Source of the DNA: Lactiplantibacillus nangangensis
GTDB taxonomy: Bacteria > Bacillota > Bacilli > Lactobacillales > Lactobacillaceae
Assembly (NCBI RefSeq): GCF_005405065.1
Contig: NZ_BJDI01000015.1
Location: 1 to 64,000, forward strand
Direction of reading: 5' to 3'
DNA: 64,000 nt
Position 1 is the stretch's first letter, and each line of letters opens with the position of its first letter. The notes beneath the pieces were generated by a model. The model was not told the DNA's origin. It saw nothing but the letters and a program-made list of their open reading frames with translations, and did not search any database. Positions 1-49,145 of the stretch are shown in pieces. Position numbers and translations under genes: made by a program.

Positions 1-103
1 TTCCAAAACTTTTGACTTCGACAAGGATCTCGTTAAAGTCTAAAGGCTAACTAAAGTTATCTGATAAAGTACCACTTTAAATAAGAGTCTGGGACAGACA
101 GCC

Positions 104-14870: not shown

Positions 14871-16202
14871 GTGGTTGATATTAGTATTTTAGATAGCATT
14901 ATCCAGTCATTCTTTTTATATTTCGGAATCATTGTCGTTTATAATCATATTTTTAAGCGAACTGGGATCAAGATGTTCATTAAATCGAGTACGTTGTTGA
15001 TTCTGCTCTCACTGATAGGGTGTCTGTTGGATGATATGGCATCGGTGATATTTTTGTTGGCAGTAGTTATTGAAGAAAAAATTCGTTTTGGCAAACTTAT
15101 TTTTAGCCATTTGAACGTTTTACTAACACTACTTTCTGGTCAAACCCTAGTTTTTTCATTGGCAGCTTTTTTAAGTGAGTCAATTTTGAGCCTTTCTTTA
15201 GGAATTGTTCAGGTCAATGGTTTGTCTAAGTTTAGTCATGTGCTGGTTGGAATTGATATTGTAATTATATGTGTGTTTGATCTTATTGCATTGAGGTTCG
15301 TTTACAGTATTTTAAAGAAACAGCCTTTTTCAATGGCTAAATTGCAAAGCCTAAAGATTGATAAAAGGTTATTTGTATTTTTGCTAGTTTTGTTTGGTTC
15401 AATCGAACTTTTATTGTTGGTTGGCAATATTCAAGGTGTAACCGCAACAATTCAATTTACGCTGTTGATTGTGTTTATTTTAATGATTGGTTTGATGAGC
15501 TGGCAAATGATTGAAATGATTCAGGTCTACACGCGGCAACAACAACTGGAAAATGAAAAACAACAAAATGAGCAGTTGAGTACCTATCTAAAAAGTGTTG
15601 AACAACAATATTTGGAATTGCGAAAATTTAAACATGATTATAAAAATTTGATTGTTAGTTTAAATACGCAAACTGATATGGGTAAAGTCAAAGATTATTT
15701 GATCAAGGCTAATCACAATAATGTGTTAGAAACTAGCTTGAACGATGCCAAAATTGCCCAAGTAGAACAATTGAAAGATACTGCGATTCGCGGGTTGGTT
15801 GTACAGAAGTTTTTCTATGCGAAAAAGTGCGGTGTCGAACTAAACGTTGAAACTTTAAACGAAGCCTTTCAAATTAGTGAGGCGGTTACGATAGTCGTCC
15901 GTGTGATTGGAAACTTATTAGATAATGCAATTGAACAGGCACAAAAGATGGCAGATAAGTCCGTCATAATTGCTTTCAATAAAATCGATGATATGTTGGA
16001 GATCTCAGTGAGAAATGCGATTGATTCGACATTTAACCAGCAACAGATTTTTAAAACTGGTTATTCGACTAAAGGCCAGAACAGGGGACTGGGACTGGCT
16101 AATGTCCGAGAATTAGTCGGCCGGCAACGTCAGTTTCATTTGGATATTGAAAGTAAAGCCGGCTATGTCACAATGACGTTGATTATTATGGAGGATGAGT
16201 GA
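14871..16202 (+). CDS. AgrC/PlnB-type sensor histidine kinase
   Basis: The 443-residue kinase of the HPK10 group senses peptide pheromones. About six N-terminal transmembrane segments cover residues 1-215, then a coiled-coil linker rich in Q and E. The phospho-acceptor motif FKHDYKNLIVSL is near residue 255, the N box GNLLDNAIEQAQ near 348 and the G box GLGLANVREL near 408. The start is GTG at 14871 with AGGGG upstream. The gene abuts the regulator gene with no spacing. No AgrD/AgrB or double-glycine pheromone gene is adjacent, as in the orphan LamKR pair of L. plantarum; identity with LamK is not claimed. Confidence 0.9.
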   Translation: MVDISILDSIIQSFFLYFGIIVVYNHIFKRTGIKMFIKSSTLLILLSLIGCLLDDMASVIFLLAVVIEEKIRFGKLIFSHLNVLLTLLSGQTLVFSLAAFLSESILSLSLGIVQVNGLSKFSHVLVGIDIVIICVFDLIALRFVYSILKKQPFSMAKLQSLKIDKRLFVFLLVLFGSIELLLLVGNIQGVTATIQFTLLIVFILMIGLMSWQMIEMIQVYTRQQQLENEKQQNEQLSTYLKSVEQQYLELRKFKHDYKNLIVSLNTQTDMGKVKDYLIKANHNNVLETSLNDAKIAQVEQLKDTAIRGLVVQKFFYAKKCGVELNVETLNEAFQISEAVTIVVRVIGNLLDNAIEQAQKMADKSVIIAFNKIDDMLEISVRNAIDSTFNQQQIFKTGYSTKGQNRGLGLANVRELVGRQRQFHLDIESKAGYVTMTLIIMEDE

Positions 16203-16946
16203 GTGTTTCCAATTTATTTATTAGAAGATAATGCCGTTCAACGTAAAGAATATGAACGCATTATTAATAATACGATTTTGATTAATGAGTATGATATGAC
16301 ATTGGTGGTGGCAGCGGAGGATACGGCCGGTGTGTTATCGAAAATGGCTAATTCTGAAGAAGGCCTGTTCTTCTTGGATATGGAGATTGGTGAAGAAAGT
16401 CAGGCTGGACTAAAACTGGCTAGTAAGATTCGAGCGGCTTTGCCATTTGCTCAGATCGTCTTTATCACAACGCATGATGAATTATCTTTTCTAACGTTAG
16501 AAAGACGGATTTCGCCATTGGACTATATTTTAAAGGATCAGCCAGCAGATGCTATTATGCAGAAGATCATTAAAGATATTAGTGTGACGCAGGAAATGCT
16601 AAAGGCAGATGCGGCTCGTCATCAAGAAATTTTTGGTTATAAATTGGGAAAACGCTTTTTTTCAGTTCCAATGAAGGATGTCATCATGCTGAGTACAACC
16701 AAGGAACGGCCGGGCTGCGTCATTTTAACTGCCACTAATCGGCAGACCGATTTTCCTGGTAATCTAAATAGTTTTGAGAAAAAGTATTCGCAGCTTTTTA
16801 GGTGTGATAAAAGTGCCTTGATCAACTTGGATCGTATTAGCAATTATGATTATCAAAATAGAAAAGTTACTTTGGCGGCAGACATTGAGTGTCCCGTCTC
16901 TTTTAGAAAATCACGGGAGCTCAATAGATTATTGAAGAATAGATAG
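16203..16946 (+). CDS. LytTR-family response regulator
   Basis: The 247-residue regulator has a receiver domain (residues 1-125) with the acidic pair ED near residue 9, phospho-acceptor D in LFFLDMEIGEE near 58 and K in YILKDQ near 110. A LytTR DNA-binding domain follows (about 145-245) with the typical RCDKSALINLDRI. It is the AgrA/PlnC/LamA layout. The start is GTG immediately behind the kinase stop (TGAGTG). It probably binds the ACGTT direct repeats upstream of the kinase gene and similar sites elsewhere. Confidence 0.9.
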   Translation: MFPIYLLEDNAVQRKEYERIINNTILINEYDMTLVVAAEDTAGVLSKMANSEEGLFFLDMEIGEESQAGLKLASKIRAALPFAQIVFITTHDELSFLTLERRISPLDYILKDQPADAIMQKIIKDISVTQEMLKADAARHQEIFGYKLGKRFFSVPMKDVIMLSTTKERPGCVILTATNRQTDFPGNLNSFEKKYSQLFRCDKSALINLDRISNYDYQNRKVTLAADIECPVSFRKSRELNRLLKNR

Positions 16947-37130: not shown

Positions 37131-37970
37131 TTATGCAATTTTCTTGACGGCATGATTTCGGTATTCCACCGGGGTCATGCCGTTTAGTGTTGTTTGGCGG
37201 CGAGAATTATTATACCAATCCATGAAGTCCGCTACTAAATCAGTAATCTCTTTCAATGATAATGGTCGTTCAAAGTCAAAATATTCGGTCTTCATATGGC
37301 TCCACAAGCTTTCCATCGGACTATTGTCACCGGGAGTTCCTGGACGAGACATACTATGTGTCACACCGGAACCGGCTAAGGCTGTGTTGTATTGACCAGA
37401 TGTATAACTGGATCCTTGATCACTATGAATAATTGCCGGTTTTACGCCGTTATTGGCCTTTAAGGCCGCATGAAACGTATCGGTCACCAATGTTGATGTT
37501 TCAGTTTGCTCAATTCTCCAACTGATGACACTGTGATCGTAAAGGTCTTTGATGGCACTAACGCGTATCTTGCCAATATTCTTAATGCCATATCGCAATT
37601 CACTACAATCAGTTACCCAGACCTGATTGGGCTGGTCAGGGTGGAAGTCATGTTTGGTATTTGCCATCAAAAGTTTATTTCCAAGAATAAACTCCTTATG
37701 TTCGGCCTTACGGTCATGCTTAGCGACCAGAATTGAGGCTACGATATGATGCTTCTTCATCAACCGTCGAATCTTACCATGACTAACATGAAAGTCAGTT
37801 TCTTTGTTTACGTAGGCAACCAAACGTTTCACCCCGAAGATATAATGGTGTGCCTCTTCTAGTTTTCTGATGTAATCGACAATCGCTTGATCTTCAATCT
37901 CTCGTTGGCTTGGCCGTCGGTTAAGCCACTTATAATAGGCAGCTCGTGACACACCCAGATACTTACACAT
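37131..37970 (-). CDS. IS3 transposase OrfB (catalytic domain)
   Basis: The 279-residue frame has an HTH_21 region (RPSQREIEDQAIVDYI) and an rve integrase core. The DDE triad is visible: WVTDCSEL near residue 119, IIHSDQGSSYTS near 180 and SPMESLWSHMKTE near 215. It is expressed as an OrfAB fusion: the frame extends upstream of the ATG into the end of orfA, and a -1 shift on the A5 run near 38046-38052 would join KNK to YRAIQALAKEAL. Confidence 0.88.
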   Translation of the reverse strand: MCKYLGVSRAAYYKWLNRRPSQREIEDQAIVDYIRKLEEAHHYIFGVKRLVAYVNKETDFHVSHGKIRRLMKKHHIVASILVAKHDRKAEHKEFILGNKLLMANTKHDFHPDQPNQVWVTDCSELRYGIKNIGKIRVSAIKDLYDHSVISWRIEQTETSTLVTDTFHAALKANNGVKPAIIHSDQGSSYTSGQYNTALAGSGVTHSMSRPGTPGDNSPMESLWSHMKTEYFDFERPLSLKEITDLVADFMDWYNNSRRQTTLNGMTPVEYRNHAVKKIA

Positions 37971-37999
37971 AAGCCCAATTTCAGTGGGCTCGTGCTGTG

Positions 38000-38725
38000 C
38001 TAGTGCTTCTTTAGCGAGTGCTTGAATGGCACGATATTTTTGTTCTGAGTGGCATCCATCCTTTCCAATTCCTTCAGTTTTTTTAGAAGCTTATTCTCCT
38101 TTGATAAGTGGGCAATTCGCGCTTCCAGTGCCTTAACTTTGAGCTCTTGTTTTTCTGTCTCGGTCAATTGAGGTTTATCGGACTTATCTTTACCACGACG
38201 ATCCTGCAATGCCTCTGGACCGCCTTGCTTAAACTTTTTTACCCAAGCATAGACTTGTCCGTAAGATACTTGGAATTGATTCATGGCGCCACTGTAATCT
38301 AAGTCATTGGCGATAACCCATTGTGCAATCTCAATTCGTTCCTTCTGCGTTGTCTTTCTACCAGTTTTCATGTTCCTATCCCTCCTAGTGGTGTTCAATG
38401 ATTTACCACTAGTATACAGGTTCACCCACTGATAGATAACACTGACATTGGGGACATTAAATTGTTTCGCTAGTTGGGGATACGAAGTATTCCCGGCTAG
38501 ATACAACTTGACCACTTTCAACTTGAATTCCACAGAGTATTGCCGTAATTTTCGCCGTTTCAGACCATCTGTACCTTCTGCTTGATACCGTTCTATCCAT
38601 TGCTTGACTTGCTCACATTTCACCCCGTACTGTCTTTCAATTTGAAATGCTGTCAGTCCTTGTTCCACTAGGTGAATATAGCCAAGTTTCTCTTCAATGC
38701 TGTACCGGGATCCTTTTCTCCCCAT
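38000..38725 (-). CDS. IS3 transposase OrfA (DNA-binding)
   Basis: The 241-residue protein has two helix-turn-helix segments (YSIEEKLGYIHLVEQG near 8-23, and a second HTH_28-like repeat near 65-85) and a third near 130-170. It ends with a leucine-zipper-like LEARIAHLSKENKLLKKLKEL. It recognises the IS ends and fuses with OrfB by programmed frameshifting. Confidence 0.85.
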   Translation of the reverse strand: MGRKGSRYSIEEKLGYIHLVEQGLTAFQIERQYGVKCEQVKQWIERYQAEGTDGLKRRKLRQYSVEFKLKVVKLYLAGNTSYPQLAKQFNVPNVSVIYQWVNLYTSGKSLNTTRRDRNMKTGRKTTQKERIEIAQWVIANDLDYSGAMNQFQVSYGQVYAWVKKFKQGGPEALQDRRGKDKSDKPQLTETEKQELKVKALEARIAHLSKENKLLKKLKELERMDATQNKNIVPFKHSLKKH

Positions 38726-38993: not shown

Positions 38994-39146
38994 AGGTGCT
39001 CCTTTTTACACTGAATAATTCATTTTCAGACACATATTTTGAATACTGATGCATACCAATCTAGCAACGATTAGCCCCCAAAGAAGCATTTGTGAAATGT
39101 TAGATGATTAAAACATCAACTCTTGTCTGCCAATAAAACTAACAGT

Positions 39147-39289
39147 TTAGCACCAGCGATATGTGGCCGTTGGCATTCCGTTGTTATAAACATGGCAACG
39201 ATGTTTCTTGCACTTGCCCCACTGATTTTAGCTAATTCAACATTTGATAACTTGGTAAATCCAAACACATTCTTAATTTTGTTAAACAT
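39147..39289 (-). pseudogene. Frameshifted double-glycine bacteriocin precursor
   Basis: Translation from the ATG at 39289 gives MFNKIKNVFGFTKLSNVELA, then KISGA. The leader pattern LSNVELAKISG is that of class II bacteriocins and peptide pheromones cut by C39 peptidases. The frame goes wrong in a run of four G at 39220-39217 (minus strand). With five G the leader would end ISGG, and the mature part would be a 22-residue, strongly basic peptide starting KCKKHRC and ending TYRWC, with the stop at 39147. It has three cysteines. Size, charge and Cys placement recall bactofencin A-like class IId bacteriocins, from memory. The break is either a real deletion or a homopolymer error in the assembly. 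Confidence 0.65.
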
Positions 39290-39416
39290 AATAACATCTA
39301 ACCAATTGATTAATTGGAACATTCAAATATCTCAGAAAAATAATTATACACAAAGCGTTAAAATGAAATATAAAGATAAAATTAATTAAAAATATCTATA
39401 TTTTTTAGTAATAAAA

Positions 39417-39466: not shown

Positions 39467-40110
39467 ATGACTAGTTTTAAGTATGTTTCACAACTGGATG
39501 AAACAGATTGTGGCGCTGCTGCATTGGCTATGATCTTTCGATACTATAAGTCCGATATATCGATTACATCTATCAGAAATGTTTCTCAGACTGATACAAA
39601 TGGGACAACTGCATTGGGACTTATAAAGGCGGCTGAACACTTTGGCTTTCAAGCAGTTGGAACGAGGGGGAGTTTGGCTGCTTTAAGAAGTAAACAAAAT
39701 GTTCAATTACCTTTTTTGGCACATGTCAATATCTACAATGGAACATTGCATTACGTTGTGGTTTTGAAAGCGAATGATAGTTATGTAAAAATGGCTGATC
39801 CGAATCCATTTGTTTAAATACGCCGAATGCCTTACGAAGAGTTTGGGAAGATTTGGACGGAAATTTTGGTTTTTATTTCACCAACATCGTTATACAGACC
39901 GCGTAAAGATAATGGGGATAGCTTGCGTTCATTTAATGGCATTGATTTTCAAGCAAGAAAATCTAGTAGCCAGTATTTTTTGCGTCATCCATTTTGCTAA
40001 GCGTTGTAACTATTACCGGCTCGCTATTCCTCGGAAGATTGATAGGAAAAAATGTATTAGCATTACTCAGCGTAAAAAAAACGAAAAAAATTAGAAACTC
40101 ATCGTTATCG
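39467..40110 (+). pseudogene. Decayed C39 peptidase-containing ABC exporter
   Basis: The first 117 residues are a C39 peptidase domain that cuts double-glycine leaders: catalytic Cys in DETDCGAAALAMI, His and Asp in LHYVVVLKANDSYVKMADPNP. The frame then stops at 39815. One extra T in GTTTAAA explains it: skipping it continues as KIRRMPYEEFGKIWTEI, as expected. A second shift near 39940 changes to ALIFKQENLVASIF and a third near 40000 to LSVVTITGSLFLG. The rest of the transmembrane domain and the whole ATPase domain are missing, apparently by a deletion that joins this remnant to the accessory gene. The locus can no longer export a bacteriocin by itself. Confidence 0.82.
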
Positions 40111-40128: not shown

Positions 40129-40446
40129 ATGAGTAACTTTATGCAATCTCTAAATGACTGAGAAGTTAAACTAATCCTGATTGGAAGACCTACTTGTGAA
40201 GAGTGTCGTGGGACAATTAAAGACATCATCAAATCAATTGAGGAACAGAACGTTCATCTTTCATATGTCAATACGGATAAGGTCGAACTAGATAAATATC
40301 ACAAAGTCTTTAAGACATTGAAAATACAATATTTACCTGATTTGTTTTGGATTTGTGGAAGAAACAAAATTAAAAGCATGAAAGTATATCATCCTGAATC
40401 AGCAATTCAAATGTGGCTTTCTGGCACAGTCACTAAGGAGAAATAA
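40129..40446 (+). pseudogene. Broken thioredoxin-like bacteriocin accessory protein
   Basis: Accessory proteins of the PedC type help form disulfides in cysteine-containing bacteriocins. The frame reads MSNFMQSLND, then TGA at 40159-40161, then continues in the same frame EVKLILIGRPTCEECRGTI to the stop at 40444. The C-x-x-C motif (CEEC) and LKIQYLPDLFWI fit a thioredoxin fold of about 95 residues. Upstream in the same frame LFLGRLIGKNVLALL looks like a signal anchor, so the true start may be lost in the deletion. It stops directly before the next ATG (TAAATG). Confidence 0.75.
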
Positions 40447-40812
40447 ATGTTTAAAAAAAGGTTTATTGATCACATAGGCATATTGTTACTTAGTATATTA
40501 ATTATTGAAGTTATCGGGACGCTTGCGTGGCAAAGGTATAGATATGGAGGAGATTATTACTATATGACCATTGGACACAGTATAGGAACATATACTGTGG
40601 AGGTTCCAGTCAATATTCCAGTTAATGCATATATATATCGTGGCGTGGCAAAAAATGATCAAGGGCAAAAAAAGGTGCTTACATTAAAGACAGATAATGT
40701 TGATCCGGGACCGTTTAAAAAAGAGGCAGTTGTGCGCTTAACGGTTAACAAACATTATGGAGTCACAAACTACAAAGTAATTAAAAACAAGCAGCATCAA
40801 ATGAAGTTCTAA
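40447..40812 (+). CDS. YxeA family (DUF1093) secreted protein
   Basis: The 121-residue protein has an N-terminal signal anchor (about residues 8-27) and a YxeA-type OB-like beta domain: DYYYMTIG, YIYRGVAKNDQGQKKVLTL, and KEAVVRLTVNKHYGVTNYKVI. Such proteins often lie in lactobacillal bacteriocin loci; their role is not established. It is the only intact gene of this transcription unit and abuts the thioredoxin-like gene. Confidence 0.75.
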   Translation: MFKKRFIDHIGILLLSILIIEVIGTLAWQRYRYGGDYYYMTIGHSIGTYTVEVPVNIPVNAYIYRGVAKNDQGQKKVLTLKTDNVDPGPFKKEAVVRLTVNKHYGVTNYKVIKNKQHQMKF

Positions 40813-40871
40813 TCTGCTCACCAATCTGGAAGATAAATACAATTGTATGTGGCTTCTAGGTTGTAAGTAGT

Positions 40872-40952
40872 AAAAAAGATAAATAACCTATTAACATCTC
40901 TCCTATTGGTGGACTATTTAGGAGAGATGTTAATAGGTTATTTATCTTTTTT
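40872..40952. terminator. Very long perfect inverted repeat, bidirectional terminator
   Basis: Two 34-base arms (40872-40905 and 40919-40952) are perfect complements around a 13-base loop, with A and T runs at the ends. It separates the convergent YxeA gene and the Rgg-like gene. The stem is far longer than terminators need. Confidence 0.85.
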
Positions 40953-40973
40953 AATTTGTAAGTTGAGTTTCAA

Positions 40974-41795
40974 TTAGTCAAATTCTTCGGAAGTGAACGC
41001 CGATAAAACCGATGAAATCTGTCTATATGAATCTCCGACCTTCTTAGTTTCAGAGTTCTTTAAATAAATATTACTAAGCATGGAATAGTAGTCAGAAACG
41101 AAAAAGATTGTTCGGGATTGTTGATTCAATTTCAATCCCCTTCGACAATACAATACGACTTTTTCATCATTATCCTGCGATGCGTGAAAGTTAGCAATTT
41201 GAGCACAAATATAGCTAAGCTCAAAGGTTTCAGCTCTTGGAATCTCCCAGTTTTCCTGAACAGCGTCTTCTACAATTTTCATGAAGTAAGCTTCCCGTTC
41301 TGCTGATCCTTGCTGTCTATTTATCAAGCCTTTAAGGGTAAAGGCCAAAAGTGCATGGATATCGTACATATCTCCATGACTGTTTACGATGATCTTATCA
41401 ATGAAGAAAGACGCATCAGAATAGGCCTGGTGAGAGTAGTTCAAAAGAGCTTCAATTATATATAGTTTTTGTTGATGAAAACGTGAAAGTTCATTATCAT
41501 TTATTGCGGAAATCATATCTTCATATTTTGAATGACCATCCAAAATTAAGTCTGTTTCAATACTTTTTAACAGTATATGTTCGTCAGCATCCGTATCGGT
41601 AACAAAATCAGAAAATGTATCGTTAAGTGTTATATCTAATCTTTTACAAATTTTGAATAATATTGGGACCGAAGGGGCAATATTATGTTTTTCAATTTTA
41701 CTTATGGTGTTTTGTGTACAGATGTCCTTTGCTAATTCAGTTTGATTCAAACCTTTGATTTTTCTCTTTTCAGCAATAATAGACCCTAAAAACAT
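40974..41795 (-). CDS. Rgg/PlcR-like peptide-responsive regulator
   Basis: The 273-residue protein has an XRE helix-turn-helix (about 7-60: LNQTELAKDICTQNTISKIE) and a long all-helical domain with TPR-like repeats (about 70-270). This is the architecture of RRNPP regulators, which bind short peptide pheromones inside the cell. GTGAGGTG precedes the ATG. It is divergent from a 15-residue W-rich peptide gene and the kinase operon, the typical layout of an Rgg protein and its cognate peptide. Confidence 0.85.
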   Translation of the reverse strand: MFLGSIIAEKRKIKGLNQTELAKDICTQNTISKIEKHNIAPSVPILFKICKRLDITLNDTFSDFVTDTDADEHILLKSIETDLILDGHSKYEDMISAINDNELSRFHQQKLYIIEALLNYSHQAYSDASFFIDKIIVNSHGDMYDIHALLAFTLKGLINRQQGSAEREAYFMKIVEDAVQENWEIPRAETFELSYICAQIANFHASQDNDEKVVLYCRRGLKLNQQSRTIFFVSDYYSMLSNIYLKNSETKKVGDSYRQISSVLSAFTSEEFD

Positions 41796-41854
41796 TTAAC
41801 AACACCTCACTTTTTATGTAAATTTTCTATATCAATTATATAATCTTATCACTA

Positions 41855-41916
41855 TAAGACTGAAAATGTTCTTTTTATGACTGTTGTATAAAATTTGCTG
41901 ATAATTGTGTTATATT
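41855..41916 (+). promoter_or_regulatory. ACTG direct repeats and promoter of the peptide-kinase operon
   Basis: ATAAGACTG and TTATGACTG are spaced 21 bases (ACTG cores at 41859 and 41880). A TATATT -10 lies at 41911-41916 without a good -35, as expected for an activated promoter. The same repeat pair occurs before the bacteriocin precursor gene. The likely binder is the LytTR regulator encoded downstream. Confidence 0.55.
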
Positions 41917-41958
41917 AACTACGGAATTAATTAACATACAAAAAGGGTGTGAGCTTCA

Positions 41959-42006
41959 ATGACTTCATTTACAATTTTATGGTTATGGCATTGGGGCCGC
42001 GGTTAA
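41959..42006 (+). CDS. 15-residue W-x-W-x-W peptide, candidate pheromone
   Basis: The frame encodes MTSFTILWLWHWGRG. It starts 36-50 bases after the inferred promoter and lies between the divergent Rgg-like gene and the kinase gene, 18 bases before the latter. Possible ribosome binding site: AAAAGGG, 11 bases upstream, or GTGAG closer. Short peptides paired with Rgg proteins in streptococci carry WW (XIP) or W-x-W (RtgS) near the C terminus, so this is a strong candidate for the cognate signal. It has no leader or double glycine. Confidence 0.6.
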   Translation: MTSFTILWLWHWGRG

Positions 42007-42024
42007 TATTATGGGAGCTTTATT

Positions 42025-43338
42025 ATGATTCAGTTAACACTAGGTATCGGGCAATTTGTTGATGCATTCACTATCGCTTTAATATTTGTCTTATTGAACA
42101 TGGTTGTTCCAAATATGTTTAAAAACATACAAAACTGGATTGTTTTAGGACTTTCCGTCATTGTTCTAAGTTTATTAGATGACGCATTTAATGGTGCAAG
42201 TGATATTTTACTTGTGCCAATTTTTTGTGGCCTGATAAAATTTTCACCTTCACTACCTATAAAAAACAAGTTAGTAATTTTATTAATGCTTGGTATAGAT
42301 GTTGTAATTTCTACTGAGTTAACAGCATTAGTTGTTTTATCTCTAGGGATACCAATTGGAGGAATGGAATTTGCCTTTGCTTGTGTAGTACTTCAGTGGG
42401 TCCTGGCAATCGGCCTTCTCAAAACAAGCCGACGTGCCTATGTTCGATTTATGAATAAGATAGGATTAAGTGGGGTCACACTCACAACTTTTATTCTTAT
42501 GAGTTTGGGACTTCTGCTTTTGGGAATTTTTGGAGTTGTACTAACAGCTAGAATTTTGAATGCCCAAACTAAAATGCTGGCTGTGACACTAGTAATTATT
42601 GCATTGTTTTGTGTATTTAACTTTATTGGATTTGCTTTATACGCAGCGGCTTTTTTGAAAAAACAAAAAGCTGACGATGAAATAAAACAGCTTCGAGAAA
42701 CTCAGGTCTACGTTGAAGAGTTGGAAAAAAAGTATGAACAACTAAGAATATTTAAGCACGATTATAAAAACATGTTGGCATCTCTATCAGTTATGTCACA
42801 AAAAGAAAACGCTAGCCAATTGAATCAGAGTATTAACGCGTTACTTGAAGATAAGGAATTAACAAATGATGCGCACACCACAACACCTGAGCAAATATTT
42901 AAGATTAAGGACGCGTTGGTTCGAGGTATGATATATCGTTATTATATAAGATCCGAAAAAAATGGTGTTTCAATGAAAGTGGAAGTGGAACATCAGTTGG
43001 AGGCTTCCGACTTAAGCGTCCCAATCACCAGATGTTTAGGAATCCTTTTGAACAATGCGTTGGAGGCCAGTTCATCACTAGGAAAGTCTGAAATTACAGT
43101 CTCTATATTAAATGATTATTCTTCAACTGATTTCATTATTGAGAACGATGTTTTGTCTGATCAAACACCTGACATGAATCGTATCTATGATTCTGGCTAT
43201 ACGACAAAGGGGGCTGGACACGGTTTAGGATTGGCAAGTATTAAAAAGATAAGTCAAAGGTATAACAACATTTTTTTGGAAACAAAATGCCAAAACAGTA
43301 AGTTTACTGCCTTCTTGTCAGTCACGGAGGGAAAATAA
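42025..43338 (+). CDS. AgrC/PlnB-type sensor histidine kinase
   Basis: The 437-residue kinase has six or seven N-terminal membrane segments (residues 1-210), a coiled-coil linker, the phospho-acceptor motif FKHDYKNMLASL near residue 245, N box GILLNNALEASS near 335 and G box GHGLGLASIKK near 395. GGGAG precedes the ATG. With the next gene it forms a two-component pair of the plantaricin type. Its ligand is unknown: neither an agrD nor an intact double-glycine pheromone gene is nearby. Base composition is AT-rich compared with the 14.9-kb kinase. Confidence 0.9.
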   Translation: MIQLTLGIGQFVDAFTIALIFVLLNMVVPNMFKNIQNWIVLGLSVIVLSLLDDAFNGASDILLVPIFCGLIKFSPSLPIKNKLVILLMLGIDVVISTELTALVVLSLGIPIGGMEFAFACVVLQWVLAIGLLKTSRRAYVRFMNKIGLSGVTLTTFILMSLGLLLLGIFGVVLTARILNAQTKMLAVTLVIIALFCVFNFIGFALYAAAFLKKQKADDEIKQLRETQVYVEELEKKYEQLRIFKHDYKNMLASLSVMSQKENASQLNQSINALLEDKELTNDAHTTTPEQIFKIKDALVRGMIYRYYIRSEKNGVSMKVEVEHQLEASDLSVPITRCLGILLNNALEASSSLGKSEITVSILNDYSSTDFIIENDVLSDQTPDMNRIYDSGYTTKGAGHGLGLASIKKISQRYNNIFLETKCQNSKFTAFLSVTEGK

Positions 43339-43340
43339 AG

Positions 43341-44078
43341 ATGTTGAACATAGCTATTTGCGAGGACAACAGAGAAATTATCAGTTTTTATAAACTTATA
43401 GTAAATAAATTTATATTAGAACACCCTGACAGTCAAATACGATTGTCTCTAGCCACGCGAGACCCATACGAAATGGAGAGTTATATCGAACAAAGCGATG
43501 GTGAAATGTCGTTTGTTTATATTTTGGATATTGAATTTGCGGGTTCATCAAAAAAAGGAATAGAACTAGCACAGATGGCCAGTAGACACGGTGATAATGT
43601 CAAAATAATTTTCATTTCAACTCACGAAGAGATGTCCATAGTCAGCTTTCAGTATAGAGTGTCCCCATTAGACTTTATTAGTAAAGAAGATGGGATGGAT
43701 AGAGTAAAAAAAATCCTATCACAAGACCTAGAAAATGTATTGCTAGAGACTGATAGTTCAAAAAAGAAAAAGACATTCATGTATAGTGTTGGTTCAAGAC
43801 TAGTCAAAGTGAAATTTGATGATATAAATTTTTTTGAATCTTCAACTAATCCACATAAAGTTGTTATTCATACTAAATATGGTACAGCTGAGTTTAGATC
43901 CAGCCTGAAAATTCTGGCTGAGTCCAGTGGTGACTTATTCAGAGTATATAGAAGTTTACTGATTAATGTATCGAATGTATTATCAATTGACGGTAAATAC
44001 GTCACATTTAAAGATCAGACTAAGTTTGAACTCAACAGACGGTTATTGTCTAGAATTAAAGCATGGGTATCTAGTTAG
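43341..44078 (+). CDS. LytTR-family response regulator
   Basis: The 245-residue protein has a receiver domain (1-125) with CEDN near residue 7, phospho-acceptor D in YILDIEFAGSS near 60 and K in FISKEDG near 115. The LytTR DNA-binding domain (about 145-245) carries RVYRSLLINVSNV. It starts 2 bases after the kinase stop. It most likely binds the ACTG direct repeats found twice in this island and drives its own operon and the bacteriocin precursor. Confidence 0.9.
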   Translation: MLNIAICEDNREIISFYKLIVNKFILEHPDSQIRLSLATRDPYEMESYIEQSDGEMSFVYILDIEFAGSSKKGIELAQMASRHGDNVKIIFISTHEEMSIVSFQYRVSPLDFISKEDGMDRVKKILSQDLENVLLETDSSKKKKTFMYSVGSRLVKVKFDDINFFESSTNPHKVVIHTKYGTAEFRSSLKILAESSGDLFRVYRSLLINVSNVLSIDGKYVTFKDQTKFELNRRLLSRIKAWVSS

Positions 44079-44105
44079 TTAGCATAAAATAATATAAACA
44101 AATAC

Positions 44106-45059
44106 GCTTGGTGCTAGTTGATTAGATTTGTACAAAAATAGCCCAACAAGGCTACACTATAGTTACTCTACTAACTAAGAAGTAAATGCCATGTTAGACC
44201 AATTACAGTATAAGCAATCAGTCGTTAAAGTTCAATCACCACTAGCTAAATGGATTACGTTACTATCACCGTTATATAAACGTTTTGTGCCAGTATCAAT
44301 TCAAATTAGAAAGAATTATAAATACGCAAAATTAGACGATATTACGTTGTTGGACTTGCTTTGTTGACAGGTGGAATTGGGCATGACCGACCAACGCCGC
44401 TTTTACCGGTTTCTTCTGAGTCTAGGATTCAATGATCTACCGGAACGCTCTCGATTCAACCGGATTAGTGTTAACGCCATGAAAATTTTTCAGTGGATTC
44501 GCTTTGGCTTGGTTCAAACAATTATGCCTAATCCTACGTATACCATTGTCGATAGATTTCCAATACCCTTGTGTCACCCAATTCGTAATCACCGTGCCAA
44601 GCGGTTACGTTCAATCGCAAATATTGGCTTTAATTCAACCAAAAAATAGTGGTATTACGGGCTAAAAGGAAGTTTTGAAGTGACCGGTCAAGGTGTCGCA
44701 GTCGCCTACACTATTACAAAGGCTTCAATTCATGATATTAACATGGTGACCACATTGGTAGATCAATATCCGTGTCGTTAAATATTGGCAGATATCGGAT
44801 ATTTAAGTCGAAAATTAAAGGTTCAGTTAGCTAAAATTGGTATCAACTTTTGGGATCCGAAGCGATATAATATCCATCACACCGGGACTGATGACCGGTT
44901 ATTGAAGCAAAACTGACGTCAAATAGCGCGCGCGTTTTCACGTTGGGTCAGTCTTTTTAACCCAGAAAAGAATCGTGCACACTTAGCAAGAGGCTTTCAA
45001 GCTAGACTAGAACAATGCTTATTAGCGGATACTATAAACTGAATCAACTAGCGCCAAGC
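44106..45059 (+). mobile_element. IS982-type element remnant
   Basis: Inverted repeats GCTTGGTGCTAGTTGATT (44106-44123) and AATCAACTAGCGCCAAGC (45042-45059) match at 17 of 18 positions. They enclose a single transposase gene with four stop codons. It lies between the response regulator and the ABC transporter and may have separated them. Confidence 0.8.
44191..45042 (+). pseudogene. IS982 family transposase, four in-frame stops
   Basis: One continuous frame of 283 codons from ATG 44191 to TGA 45040 is interrupted by TGA (44365), TAG (44647), TAA (44779) and TGA (44914), with no frameshift. Family marks remain: TDQRRFYRFL, YTIVDRFPIPLCHPIRNHRA (an R replaces the S usual in SFPIPLC), YGLKGSFEVTGQG, TITKASIHDI and GFQARLEQCLL. 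The element is dead. Decay only by base substitutions suggests moderate age. Confidence 0.88.
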
Positions 45060-45076
45060 TTAAATGAGGTATAAAA

Positions 45077-45976
45077 ATGGAAAAAATTGCTGAATTACAA
45101 AATGTCTCACTACGCAAGCATGATGGGAAAATTTTGGATAATATCTCGTTTGATTTAAATGCTGGAGGAATATGGGGGATTGTTGGTCCAAATGGAGCCG
45201 GGAAAACAACAATCATGAAAGTAATGCTTGGACTTTTGAAATACGATAAAGGAACCGTCAAAATTGACAATCAACTCGTAACGAGCAAAAAACACAGTGT
45301 AGTTAGAGATCAAGTTGGCGCACTCATAGAAAATCCATCGTTATATCCATATCTAACGGGATTTCAGCACCTCAATTTGTATTCTAGTGATAAAAAAAAG
45401 ATCAGTACGATAGTTCAACAATTGAAAATGACGAATTATATCAAGCAAAAAACAAAACTATATTCATTAGGCATGAAACAGAAGCTAGGAATAGCTATAG
45501 CTTTGGTCAACTGTCCAAAACTTGTTATTTTAGATGAACCCATGAATGGGCTGGACCCTAAATCGGCTAGAGAACTACGAATGCTAATTCAACAAAAAAA
45601 TCGAGAAGGAACTACCTTTTTGATTTCTAGTCATGTGTTGAGCGAATTACAAAAAATAATTACGGGCATCATCATTGTAAATGATGGGAAAATCAGTATA
45701 GAAACAACGCCAAGTGAATTGAAAAAAATGGTTAATAATCAAGTCATTATTAACACTAATGACAATGACAAGGCGCTTAAAACACTCAATGTGTTATTTC
45801 CTGATGACGGTCTGAAAAGTTTAATTATTGATTCGGATAAATCAGAAAAATTGAATGACTATTTACAGGCAATCATTAACAATGATATTCAAATTCTATC
45901 GGTCAATGATAGTCAAGATGACTTAGAAAACACAATGTTAGAACTGATGCAGCATAAAAGCGACAAGGAAAGGTAG
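45077..45976 (+). CDS. ABC transporter ATP-binding protein
   Basis: The 299-residue ATPase of the BcrA/LanF type has Walker A GIVGPNGAGKTTIMK near residue 36, signature LYSLGMKQKLGIA near 130 and Walker B LVILDEPMNGLDP near 152. A C-terminal accessory domain of about 80 residues follows. GAGG lies 8 bases before the ATG, just outside the IS982 repeat. Such transporters often give self-protection against bacteriocins or lantibiotics; that role is inferred from context. Confidence 0.9.
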   Translation: MEKIAELQNVSLRKHDGKILDNISFDLNAGGIWGIVGPNGAGKTTIMKVMLGLLKYDKGTVKIDNQLVTSKKHSVVRDQVGALIENPSLYPYLTGFQHLNLYSSDKKKISTIVQQLKMTNYIKQKTKLYSLGMKQKLGIAIALVNCPKLVILDEPMNGLDPKSARELRMLIQQKNREGTTFLISSHVLSELQKIITGIIIVNDGKISIETTPSELKKMVNNQVIINTNDNDKALKTLNVLFPDDGLKSLIIDSDKSEKLNDYLQAIINNDIQILSVNDSQDDLENTMLELMQHKSDKER

Positions 45977-45981
45977 AACCT

Positions 45982-46752
45982 ATGAAACCATTGATGTATC
46001 AAGAATTTTTGAAGTTAAGATTTAAAAAGAGTACATGGATTTCATTAATCATTGCTGTAGGCATGATGGTTTTGACTGGACTAACAACACTAAGTGTTAG
46101 CAGTTCTGATAGTAAGTATTATTTTTCTTCTGCTTACGGTGGCTTCCAGTGGTTCATTATCGTTTTAATTGCAATTAATGCCTCATCTATCACCTCCGAA
46201 TTTCAACTTGGTACGATCAAGCATTTAGTCATTCAAGCAGATAGCCGGTGGCGGGTATACTATATCAAATTATTGGCAATAAGCTGCTATAACTTTATCG
46301 GACATATTATAATCTTCCTGGCTGCTGTACTAATCAAATTACTTTTATATCCAGAACTAGATTTATTCTCACATTATCACTATGGTAGTACAGTTATCGT
46401 TAATCTAATTCTGAACGGGACGTTAGACTTCTTTCTTAGTTACCTTTTCATTGGCATGGTAACATTGATTGCTTGTATTAGTTCTAACAGTGCCGTGGCG
46501 GCTTCTGTGGGGATAGGTGTCGCATTTGCCGGAGAGGGATTATCCAACATGTTATTATCCTCATTTCCAAGCATAATCCCAATAATGCGATGGAATCCAT
46601 TTAACATGCTAAATTTCCAGCAACAATTTGCTTATCCAGAACATATTCATGATACCCATCTTCTGTTATCACAGATGGGTGTTGGAATATTTGTTTGGAG
46701 CTGTTTATTCCTAATACTTGGGCAATTACTTTTTCAACGCAGAAAGATCTAA
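45982..46752 (+). CDS. ABC-2 type transporter permease
   Basis: The 256-residue membrane protein has six hydrophobic segments and the opening MYQEFLKLRFKKSTWISLII, typical of BcrB/LanE-like ABC-2 permeases. It starts 5 bases after the ATPase stop and forms the transporter with it. The element behind it (46827) may be a remnant of a second permease. Confidence 0.85.
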   Translation: MKPLMYQEFLKLRFKKSTWISLIIAVGMMVLTGLTTLSVSSSDSKYYFSSAYGGFQWFIIVLIAINASSITSEFQLGTIKHLVIQADSRWRVYYIKLLAISCYNFIGHIIIFLAAVLIKLLLYPELDLFSHYHYGSTVIVNLILNGTLDFFLSYLFIGMVTLIACISSNSAVAASVGIGVAFAGEGLSNMLLSSFPSIIPIMRWNPFNMLNFQQQFAYPEHIHDTHLLLSQMGVGIFVWSCLFLILGQLLFQRRKI

Positions 46753-47080: not shown

Positions 47081-47744
47081 TATTAGCCCATTTATACCAT
47101 CTTTTTTTGCGACAATCATAAGACTATTTTAGCTTCGGCAAAGATCAGTTTGTGGCTAATTTCTTATAGGATAAAAGGAATGCTTAAAATAATTATCCTG
47201 GATATGAGGCAATTCGTGTCGGTAGTTCTAGGCTCATGAAATTTGTGAGTGAAATTGTGTTAGTAGAAATTAGTAAGTTATATCAACTTCTGTGAACTGA
47301 TAAATTGAATGGCTATTATTTGCTGTGTTTGAATATTGAAAAATTTCAGGGTGATTGGGATCTAAAATCAGAGTATTTAACTGCCTGAGCATTTTTAGGT
47401 TACTGAGAGGCTTTTAACCATTATTCAGTGGCAAATTTTTCCATGGATTGGTGAATTTATATCGGTTTGAAACGGGATTAGATGATAGATATTATATGCA
47501 AAATGTTATTTGCTGAAAGAACATAGTTGAACTGTGACAAAAATCACAATGGCAAAAACTATCATTATTTAGTAATTAAATATGAAGCATCAAAAAAGCA
47601 CCTTGAATAGGCTTTCTTAAGCTAATCTCATTCATGGCATTAAAACTTAAAAGTAATTTGCAAAAGAATTAGCAATCTGATAAAGTAATAATGTTAAAGC
47701 ATTCACAATATCAAACGCCGCTGTTTTGAAAGGAGAGATACACA
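47081..47744. other. Gene-free AT-rich stretch
   Basis: No frame with a ribosome binding site and protein-like composition was found, and no repeat shared with the rest of the window. The last 20 bases contain AAGGAGAG, the site for the secreted protein gene that follows. Confidence 0.5.
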
Positions 47745-48374
47745 ATACTAACCAAGTCTTCAGTTATTACTAGAACCCTGTTAACTGGATTAGTCTTAGT
47801 ACCAATCATTTTTCTTCCTGTAACTTCAGCCGATGCTGAGCCAACAATCATAACGACTCAGGCAACAAAAGTTTCCCAACAGGCTAAAGCAGATATTTTA
47901 AGCGAGTCACAAGTCTCACAAATTGATCCTTATGTTTCAGTGGTGAATAATCAATATGTTTTAAATCTTCCTAACGACAATAATTTTTCAAATGAAGAGA
48001 TTGAACAAGCAACTAATTTGATTTCAGAAGCAAATAAAATAGTGTTTTTAAATAATGCAGTCATCGACACTCAAACAAAAGTTGCCTCCATGTACCCTAT
48101 TCAGACCAGGTCATATGGGAAGAATGATATCCAGATTCATTGGAATTATGCAAGAATCTATTTGGATAAGGGACAAGCGAAAGCCCTTATGGCAGCTGCG
48201 ATTAGTGATGGATCGACAGCATTGGGTGGGTTCTTTGGCAATGTCGGTGGTGCTGCTGCGGGTGCTGCAATTGGTGCCTATTTGTCATCAGTGGTTGGTT
48301 CCGATGTAAAGAGTGGTGTATGGCTAGATTTTAATTATTTCAGCAAAAGTGTTAATAATTGGGGATGGCAGTAG
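47745..48374 (+). CDS. Secreted glycine-rich protein with an AUA start
   Basis: The in-frame sequence upstream of the nearest GTG (47940) encodes a clear signal peptide: LTKSSVITRTLL, then a hydrophobic core and a cleavage site near TSADA. No ATG, GTG or TTG opens it; an ATA at 47745 sits 9 bases after AAGGAG, after an in-frame stop. I take AUA as start (209 residues) or suspect a mutated start. The C-terminal half has a glycine-zipper-like stretch (LGGFFGNVGGAAAGAAIGAY) and ends NYFSKSVNNWGWQ. This hydrophobic Gly/Ala stretch suggests membrane insertion, as in secreted bacteriocin-like toxins; unproven. A small membrane protein gene abuts it. Confidence 0.55.
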   Translation: MLTKSSVITRTLLTGLVLVPIIFLPVTSADAEPTIITTQATKVSQQAKADILSESQVSQIDPYVSVVNNQYVLNLPNDNNFSNEEIEQATNLISEANKIVFLNNAVIDTQTKVASMYPIQTRSYGKNDIQIHWNYARIYLDKGQAKALMAAAISDGSTALGGFFGNVGGAAAGAAIGAYLSSVVGSDVKSGVWLDFNYFSKSVNNWGWQ

Positions 48375-48554
48375 ATGAAATCTGTTACGCGATTAATAGT
48401 GCTGATTAGCCTATCAGTTGCGGCTTTTCAGTATTTATATGTTGTGTTTATCTCACCGCTAATAAGTTCAGTTAATATTCGGTCTGGTTTGGGAGCGGTG
48501 CTTAGTGTCATGGTCGTTTTGGGGATTTACTTTATAGATAAGCATTATAGGTGA
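48375..48554 (+). CDS. Small two-helix membrane protein, possible immunity partner
   Basis: The 59-residue frame begins MKSVTRLIVLISLSVAAF directly at the stop codon of the secreted protein gene (TAGATG), so it is translationally coupled. Two hydrophobic segments (about 6-25 and 35-53) end in DKHYR. A tiny membrane protein coupled to a secreted Gly-rich protein resembles toxin-immunity pairs; this is inference. Confidence 0.55.
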   Translation: MKSVTRLIVLISLSVAAFQYLYVVFISPLISSVNIRSGLGAVLSVMVVLGIYFIDKHYR

Positions 48555-48787: not shown

Positions 48788-49110
48788 TTGACAATTGTGA
48801 GAAATCGACTTATAGTTTAATCATCATTTAATCGTAATCTCATATTTGCGTTGAAGAGAAGAGTAGTCCTTATTTTTAGGTGACAGTGAGCCCGACGAGT
48901 GGAAACGGGTCCTAAATTAAGGGTGAAGATGAGCTCTGAGCATGTCAGGCGGTTCACGCTGACTGACCGGTTGCAACCGTTAGCTTGCCAGGTATCAACA
49001 GGTACCGTTGAGGCTGATTGTGCAAACAATCAGCAAAGTTAGGGTGGTAACGCGCAAGATAATCGTCCCTTTTAATCACATTGGTGGTTAGAAGGGGCGA
49101 TTTTTTTGAT
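48788..49110 (+). promoter_or_regulatory. Methionine T-box leader with promoter and terminator
   Basis: Promoter: TTGACA (48788-48793), 17 bases, TATAGT (48811-48816). The leader shows the T-box sequence AGGGTGGTAACGCGC (49041-49055) and a terminator AATCGTCCCTT/AAGGGGCGATTTTTTT (about 49060-49105). An ATG followed by A at 48929-48931 sits in the expected specifier loop, which specifies methionine. Uncharged tRNA-Met would stabilise the antiterminator and turn on the MetE-like gene. Confidence 0.85.
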
Positions 49111-49145
49111 TATGATTAAAACAAAATTTGACGGGGGCTTTTAAA

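Follow-up and report, generated by a model that had tools for sequence, protein, structure and literature searches.

A predicted leaderless micropeptide in the pheromone slot of an AgrC/ComD-type kinase in Lactiplantibacillus nangangensis

In a 64,000-nucleotide stretch of Lactiplantibacillus nangangensis DNA (contig NZ_BJDI01000015.1, positions 1 to 64,000; hereafter the window), a 15-codon frame lies between a divergent helix-turn-helix (HTH) gene and a sensor kinase and response regulator pair. This arrangement raises the question of whether so short a frame encodes a signal and, if so, which of its neighbors reads it. The explanation that we prefer, to which we give an even chance, is a two-component system that senses a leaderless pheromone, with a PlcR-like regulator in an accessory role. 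The HTH gene, the 15-codon frame, and the kinase and regulator pair named in the preliminary description of this DNA are all present where it placed them, and the locus is made up as follows (TPR, tetratricopeptide repeat).

41959-42006, plus strand: micropeptide frame MTSFTILWLWHWGRG, starting with ATG, 15 codons, Trp-rich, in the pheromone slot of the kinase
42025-43338, plus strand: AgrC/ComD-type sensor histidine kinase, 437 amino acids (Pfam HATPase_c_5)
43341-44078, plus strand: response regulator with a LytTR DNA-binding domain, 245 amino acids (Pfam LytTR)
40974-41795, minus strand: divergent HTH-TPR regulator, PlcR-like, 273 amino acids (HTH_3; PlcR by profile and predicted fold)
41796-41958, no strand: intergenic control region common to the regulator and the micropeptide (no LytTR-type repeat detected)

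The kinase has about six hydrophobic stretches within residues 2-214 and the motif HDYKN at residue 245. It matched NCBIfam AgrC with 106.9 bits, under the cut-off of 500, and the response regulator matched AgrA with 104.6 bits, under the cut-off of 400. An AgrC/ComD-type membrane kinase followed by a LytTR regulator is the composition of the pheromone two-component type. A second AgrC/ComD-type kinase and response regulator pair is located at 14871-16946 of the window, with no short ribosome-site-led frame ahead of it.

Comparison with related loci revealed that small frames recur directly ahead of the kinase. Forty stretches around the best regulator matches were read, giving 24 kinases and 18 regulators without a kinase; 12 further Companilactobacillus regulator matches (of 35 at E 1.8e-88 or better) lay outside these stretches. 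The duplicate loci L041 and L042 were dropped, and the 24 kinases exclude that of the window and include the broken copy of Lactiplantibacillus xiangfangensis (L133). Starts of open reading frames (ORFs) were set by a script favoring ribosome sites, and some kinase starts (the L118 group and L132) fell too far downstream; the L118 group was re-examined with the upstream kinase start. An ATG frame of 10-40 codons whose ribosome site spans 5 bases or more and whose end lies -12 to 45 nt ahead of the gene preceded 9 of the 24 relative kinases, versus 4 of 205 other ORFs of at least 200 amino acids in the same loci (Fisher 1.8e-7) and 1.1% of shuffles. A 14-23-residue frame occupies the slot of 13 of the 24 kinases, nine with a strong ribosome site and four with a weaker one (4 bases in L123 and L130, weaker still in L115 and L121); a putative small peptide gene directly precedes the kinase in these 13 and in the window. 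The frames read ahead of relatives' kinases include MGLFTFFLDWGLPGSNH, MDIFTSFISIGSIFLHH, MLNIFETLIGGGNHWGIKWY, MLNIFQVLSTIGKTWGLRGH, MFDSLQILANFDLLRDMSHH, and MDIYSMLISIFDGAKHR, and those of genus g26 are MMNGIQNLIFWFWN, MMSNIQNLIFWFWN, and MISLFRLWTWIMDLFD. The comparative search for W-x-W frames beside related regulators, which the preliminary description had proposed, found them at L024/L128, L028/L129, and L131. A W-x-W micropeptide frame, a regulator resembling HTH-TPR peptide receptors, and a peptide-type kinase make up one recurring locus, and to this extent the preliminary interpretation was right. The L128 and L129 peptides are identical in their last 10 residues, and two of their Phe codons differ synonymously. 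Taken by sequence, this pattern suggests that MTSFTILWLWHWGRG is a member of a variable micropeptide family, leaderless and 14-23 residues long, that occupies the pheromone slot of the kinase.

The frame tracks the kinase rather than the regulator. No ribosome-site-led short frame was found within 450 nt at any of the 18 related regulator loci lacking a kinase; in L131 the regulator faces the response regulator gene while the frame precedes a kinase on the other side, and L137 has the frame placed after its response regulator gene and ahead of its kinase, so that at both loci it keeps to the kinase at a distance from the promoter of the regulator. On these grounds, the kinase appears to be the likelier receptor of the micropeptide. 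Among kinase relatives drawn from 397 genomes of the family, all 18 at E 1.3e-36 or better had the regulator in the fetched stretch (in one, L070, as a weak match), and none of the 12 weaker kinases fetched (of 14, with flanks of about 1.5 kb) had it. The slot of these 12 holds a double-glycine pheromone precursor in four and a degenerate one in a fifth, which identifies the position as the pheromone slot of this kinase family. Furthermore, a LytTR-type direct repeat with a 21-bp period precedes the frame in L129, where none of 200 shuffles did as well, and in L128 (p 0.01), as autoinduction would predict, with weaker repeats in L131 (p 0.13) and L130 (p 0.145).

To assess the composition of the window frame, the plus strand of the 229-nt intergenic region was simulated 20,000 times with a first-order Markov model. 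A frame of 12-40 codons starting with ATG turned up in 81% of the simulations, a W-x-W frame of that length in 1.4%, and one with at least three Trp in 1.9%. Of the 819 such ATG frames in the whole window, 9 contain at least three Trp, so the composition of the frame alone is unusual but not unique. The recurrence of the slot and of W-x-W in relatives provides stronger evidence for MTSFTILWLWHWGRG than its composition does, as judged from sequence comparison. Of 1000 shuffled versions of the frame, moreover, 992 aligned less well to the frames of 12 relatives than the frame did (p 0.008). It is too short to carry a double-glycine leader and has none, the GA-leader frame at 39116-39322 being located elsewhere, and no exact matches to the window frame or to the g26 frames were found in viral contigs.

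The divergent regulator had been described as Rgg/PlcR-like, and only the second half of that label held. HTH_3 is certain in the window protein (Pfam). A profile of 13 relatives searched against solved structures matched PlcR (2qfc) over its full length (E 3.8e-9), outranked only over short stretches by two designed TPR proteins. The structure predicted by AlphaFold2, whose pLDDT averages 77 and is about 38-61 in the HTH part, gave as its top fold match PlcR bound to PapR and DNA (3u3w; E 8.3e-4, TM 0.59), which was also the sole match at E 0.001 or better; ComR ranked 38. Among the 13 members, HTH_3 was present in all, TPR families in some, and RNPP_C in one (E 0.003). The Pfam and NCBIfam libraries contain an Rgg family, and no Rgg family was among the matches of the regulator and its relatives in either library; with PlcR as the best full-length structure match, Rgg was rejected as the regulator family. 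The HTH_3, profile, and fold matches together predict an RRNPP-type regulator of HTH-TPR architecture that resembles PlcR and not Rgg. Of 345 genomes sampled from the order, 6 carried the subfamily (delimited at E 1e-60), and all 6 are Lactobacillaceae; plasmid and phage matches (109 and 6 records) were all below 60% identity.

Between loci with differing peptides, the sensor half of the kinase has diverged much more than the catalytic half. The mean identity gap between the two halves was 23 points in 13 pairs of the peptide clade, while the 6 pairs from the frame-free clade averaged 7.7, a contrast that is overstated since the frame-free clade is less diverged and the pairs are not independent. 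The 13 pairs are those with catalytic identity of at least 58%, out of 34, and they include L128/L129, where the peptides are nearly equal. In the most striking pair, L120/L121, whose peptides are unlike, identity was 94% in the TPR part of the regulator, 68% in the kinase sensor, and 82% in the catalytic half.

Several observations weigh against a leaderless pheromone sensed by the kinase. The Shine-Dalgarno match of the window frame is weak (4 bases), and the L121 frame is without a good ribosome site. In L. xiangfangensis, the frame starts with ATA instead of ATG, has WSW for WLW, and is preceded by a poorer ribosome site. No frame was found at 10 of the 24 relative kinases (L118, L122 twice, L124, L125, L127, L133, L138 twice, and L141), and one further kinase (L132) has a 40-residue frame of another kind. 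A LytTR-type repeat was not found in the window, nor, L128 and L129 apart, in 9 of the 11 other upstream regions scanned (10 by another count) at p 0.05; the remainder of the scan is weak. The complete peptidase-containing exporter of RtgR/S-type loci is lacking, the C39 gene of the window being a peptidase-domain fragment. Finally, the permutation test was mixed: peptide similarity followed the kinase sensor, given the catalytic half, with r 0.25 (p 0.096), and followed the TPR part of the regulator, given the HTH part, with r 0.50 (p 0.002).

The last of these values bears on the alternative that the micropeptide is a pheromone of the RRNPP type. In this model the peptide would be exported and taken up again, the divergent HTH-TPR regulator would bind it and control the peptide and kinase operon, and the kinase would sense something else. 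The PlcR-like sequence and fold of the regulator would suit this model, as would the divergent gene order, which resembles that of leaderless communication peptides and RopB (PMC10518010), and the W-x-W motif, which resembles Rio84 and RtgS (PMC9426450 and PMC7018657). Against it, the TPR signal disappeared once the kinase catalytic half was given (r -0.03, p 0.54), the L120 and L121 regulators are nearly identical despite their unlike peptides, and the frame is absent from the kinase-free regulators and, in L131 and L137, accompanies the kinase. We consider this alternative unlikely.

Whatever the family does, the frame of the window itself could be a chance frame or a dead remnant, a reading compatible with the others and bearing on decay in this lineage. 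The best named relative is L. xiangfangensis, whose regulator is 98% identical and in which 40414-44100 of the window is 96% identical (L041, L057, and L133); the region was present in only this one of 20 other genomes of the genus searched. The loss of the start codon in the sole close relative found, the weak ribosome site, and the fragmentary C39 gene nearby (about 100 of its 351 bases align in L. xiangfangensis) all favor a dead frame. On the other side stand the rarity of W-x-W in the simulations, the resemblance to relatives' frames, the correct slot and spacing, and purifying selection on the three proteins: the ratio of nonsynonymous to synonymous substitution rates between the window and L. 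xiangfangensis was 0.06 for the regulator, 0.08 for the kinase, and 0.12 for the response regulator. On balance, a dead or chance frame is a serious possibility, though a somewhat improbable one. Since the intact ATG frame fits the frames of relatives, we infer that it represents the ancestral state, and the module is possibly decaying in the clade of the window. Conservation of the frame, on which the preliminary description had staked its proposal, thus holds for the slot and the W-x-W motif and fails for the start codon in the closest relative.

A third alternative is that the frame acts in cis as a leader, its translation opening or coupling that of the kinase, with the peptide itself inert. 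The frame ends 18 nt ahead of the kinase start in the window and within about 30 nt in most relatives, a spacing that such coupling would explain. Five regions folded no better than shuffles (z -0.59, 1.90, 0.61, 0.66, and 0.05), and neither a terminator-like site nor an Rfam leader was found between frame and kinase; an attenuator or hairpin at this position was rejected on these scans. The L128 and L129 peptide is moreover conserved through synonymous codon changes, and double-glycine pheromones occupy the same slot, both of which argue against an inert product. We regard a cis-acting leader as very unlikely.

Under the preferred reading, a pheromone sensed by the kinase, the micropeptide would be translated without a double-glycine, Sec, or AgrD-type leader and would leave the cell through a general peptide exporter. 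Outside the cell it would activate the kinase, and the LytTR regulator, once phosphorylated, would raise expression of the peptide and kinase operon and of other targets, in the window perhaps an ABC transporter. The divergent PlcR-like regulator would add an accessory input to this intergenic region, with or without binding re-imported peptide. A bolder version holds that leaderless variable micropeptides in Lactobacillaceae replaced the double-glycine pheromone at this kinase clade and are read twice, by the kinase outside and by the PlcR-like regulator after import; we consider this quite improbable.

As to regulation within the window, the activator-type promoter of the preliminary description was not borne out, a consensus scan of 40700-42100 giving 8 promoter-like sites versus a shuffle mean of 6.3 (sd 2.4). 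A repeat search for an operator common to the window promoters returned only short, chance-like families, and with nothing convincing from this or the LytTR-repeat search, a common operator was rejected. The neighboring genes that might belong to the locus are as follows.

45077-46752, plus strand: ABC ATPase and ABC-2 permease genes, retained in L. xiangfangensis and perhaps an output of the module
39467-39817, plus strand: C39 peptidase exporter gene fragment with the peptidase domain only, 116 amino acids (library matches)
39116-39322, minus strand: frame with a GA-type (double-glycine-like) leader, ..ELAKISGA (from sequence)

Among the loci compared, the ABC, YxeA, and C39 genes of the window were closely matched only in L. 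xiangfangensis, while L120 and L132 gave only weak ABC matches of a generic kind, and a conserved output operon was rejected for this reason. By eye, several Companilactobacillus copies (flanks of L115, L117, and L123) adjoin genes that look like those of secreted surface proteins, together with one for a large membrane protein, and not bacteriocins. The proposal of an RtgS-type locus with a C39 exporter and a double-glycine peptide is weak here, given the fragmentary C39 gene and the secreted-protein-like neighbors of several Companilactobacillus copies.

Among known systems, the module resembles the double-glycine pheromone systems of lactic acid bacteria (ComD/PlnB-type kinase) in having the pheromone gene directly ahead of the kinase and LytTR regulator, in the precursors that related kinases carry in the slot, and in the LytTR-type repeats of two relatives; it differs in the lack of such a leader, the length of 14-23 residues, and the linked divergent PlcR-like regulator. 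The nearest concept in print is the class of leaderless communication peptides, mostly of 8-10 residues, that bind RopB (PMC10518010). That class shares the leaderless hydrophobic micropeptide divergent from an HTH-TPR regulator, whereas the present peptides have 15 residues in the window (14-23 in the family), are tied to a kinase, and accompany a PlcR-like regulator; the terms two-component and AgrC are absent from the main text of that paper. Rgg systems, including leaderless peptides with Rgg receptors, are covered by a 2026 review (PMC13361665).

With RtgR/S and Rgg1518/Rio84 of pneumococcus, the family shares W-x-W near the C terminus, the g26 frames ending in FWFWN. Rio84 has 33 residues, and its active C12 form, IQLIWFETWFWG, ends in TWFWG; these systems differ in their N-terminal precursor parts and Rgg-type receptors (PMC9426450 and PMC7018657), and the resemblance is compositional. 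PlcR-PapR of the Bacillus cereus group is similar in regulator sequence and predicted fold, but at the present locus no Sec-exported PapR-like precursor was seen and a kinase is linked; one survey of RRNPP systems is reported to have found no PlcR systems in Lactobacillales (PMC9765709). The kinase and response regulator are AgrC/AgrA-like under the curated cut-offs. Unlike Agr, the window locus has no AgrD-type precursor, and AgrB had no match in the genome itself at E 0.001, in a search whose control set was weak (1 of 14 detected, below the cut-off). In the open-licence literature, we found no description of AgrC/ComD-type kinases with leaderless peptides and none of this gene order, which is weak evidence of absence.

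Some further observations concern related loci and the rest of the window. The 40-residue frame of L132, MFILTNQPLKSKKRVAEAIFGSACYQTKKVLVVPSTTKDW, contains one Cys, belongs to a paralogous kinase locus of the window's genome (L036 2815-2937), and was not counted as a member of the family. In the clade of L118, L124, L125, and L127, which has no frame ahead of the kinase, L118 has a 14-codon frame downstream on the opposite strand. Two tandem kinases of the clade occur at L122 3719-7221 and L138 11781-14495, as if duplicated or acquired, with no clear micropeptide frame. In the window, 44100-45061, between the response regulator and the ABC genes, has no counterpart in the L. xiangfangensis alignment and contains transposase-like broken frames by eye, and 37131-38725 holds two minus-strand ORFs, of which 38000-38725 matches helix-turn-helix families of IS3-type transposases. 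The region 47740-48554 includes a frame (47940-48374) with a Gly-Ala-rich stretch and no Pfam match; a signal-peptide-like reading that lacks a standard ATG start precedes this frame, and one of 59 amino acids follows it. By eye the region looks like a bacteriocin and immunity pair. A T-box leader (RF00230, 96.6 bits) lies at 48842-49073, ahead of the gene at 49128.

If the preferred reading is true, pheromones sensed by kinases can do without a leader and without an exporter of their own, and many peptides of this kind would have escaped notice because frames of 14-23 codons are rarely annotated. Surface-kinase and intracellular HTH-TPR peptide sensing, two large Gram-positive classes, would then be combined in one compact module, and this module would be directly testable in food lactic acid bacteria.

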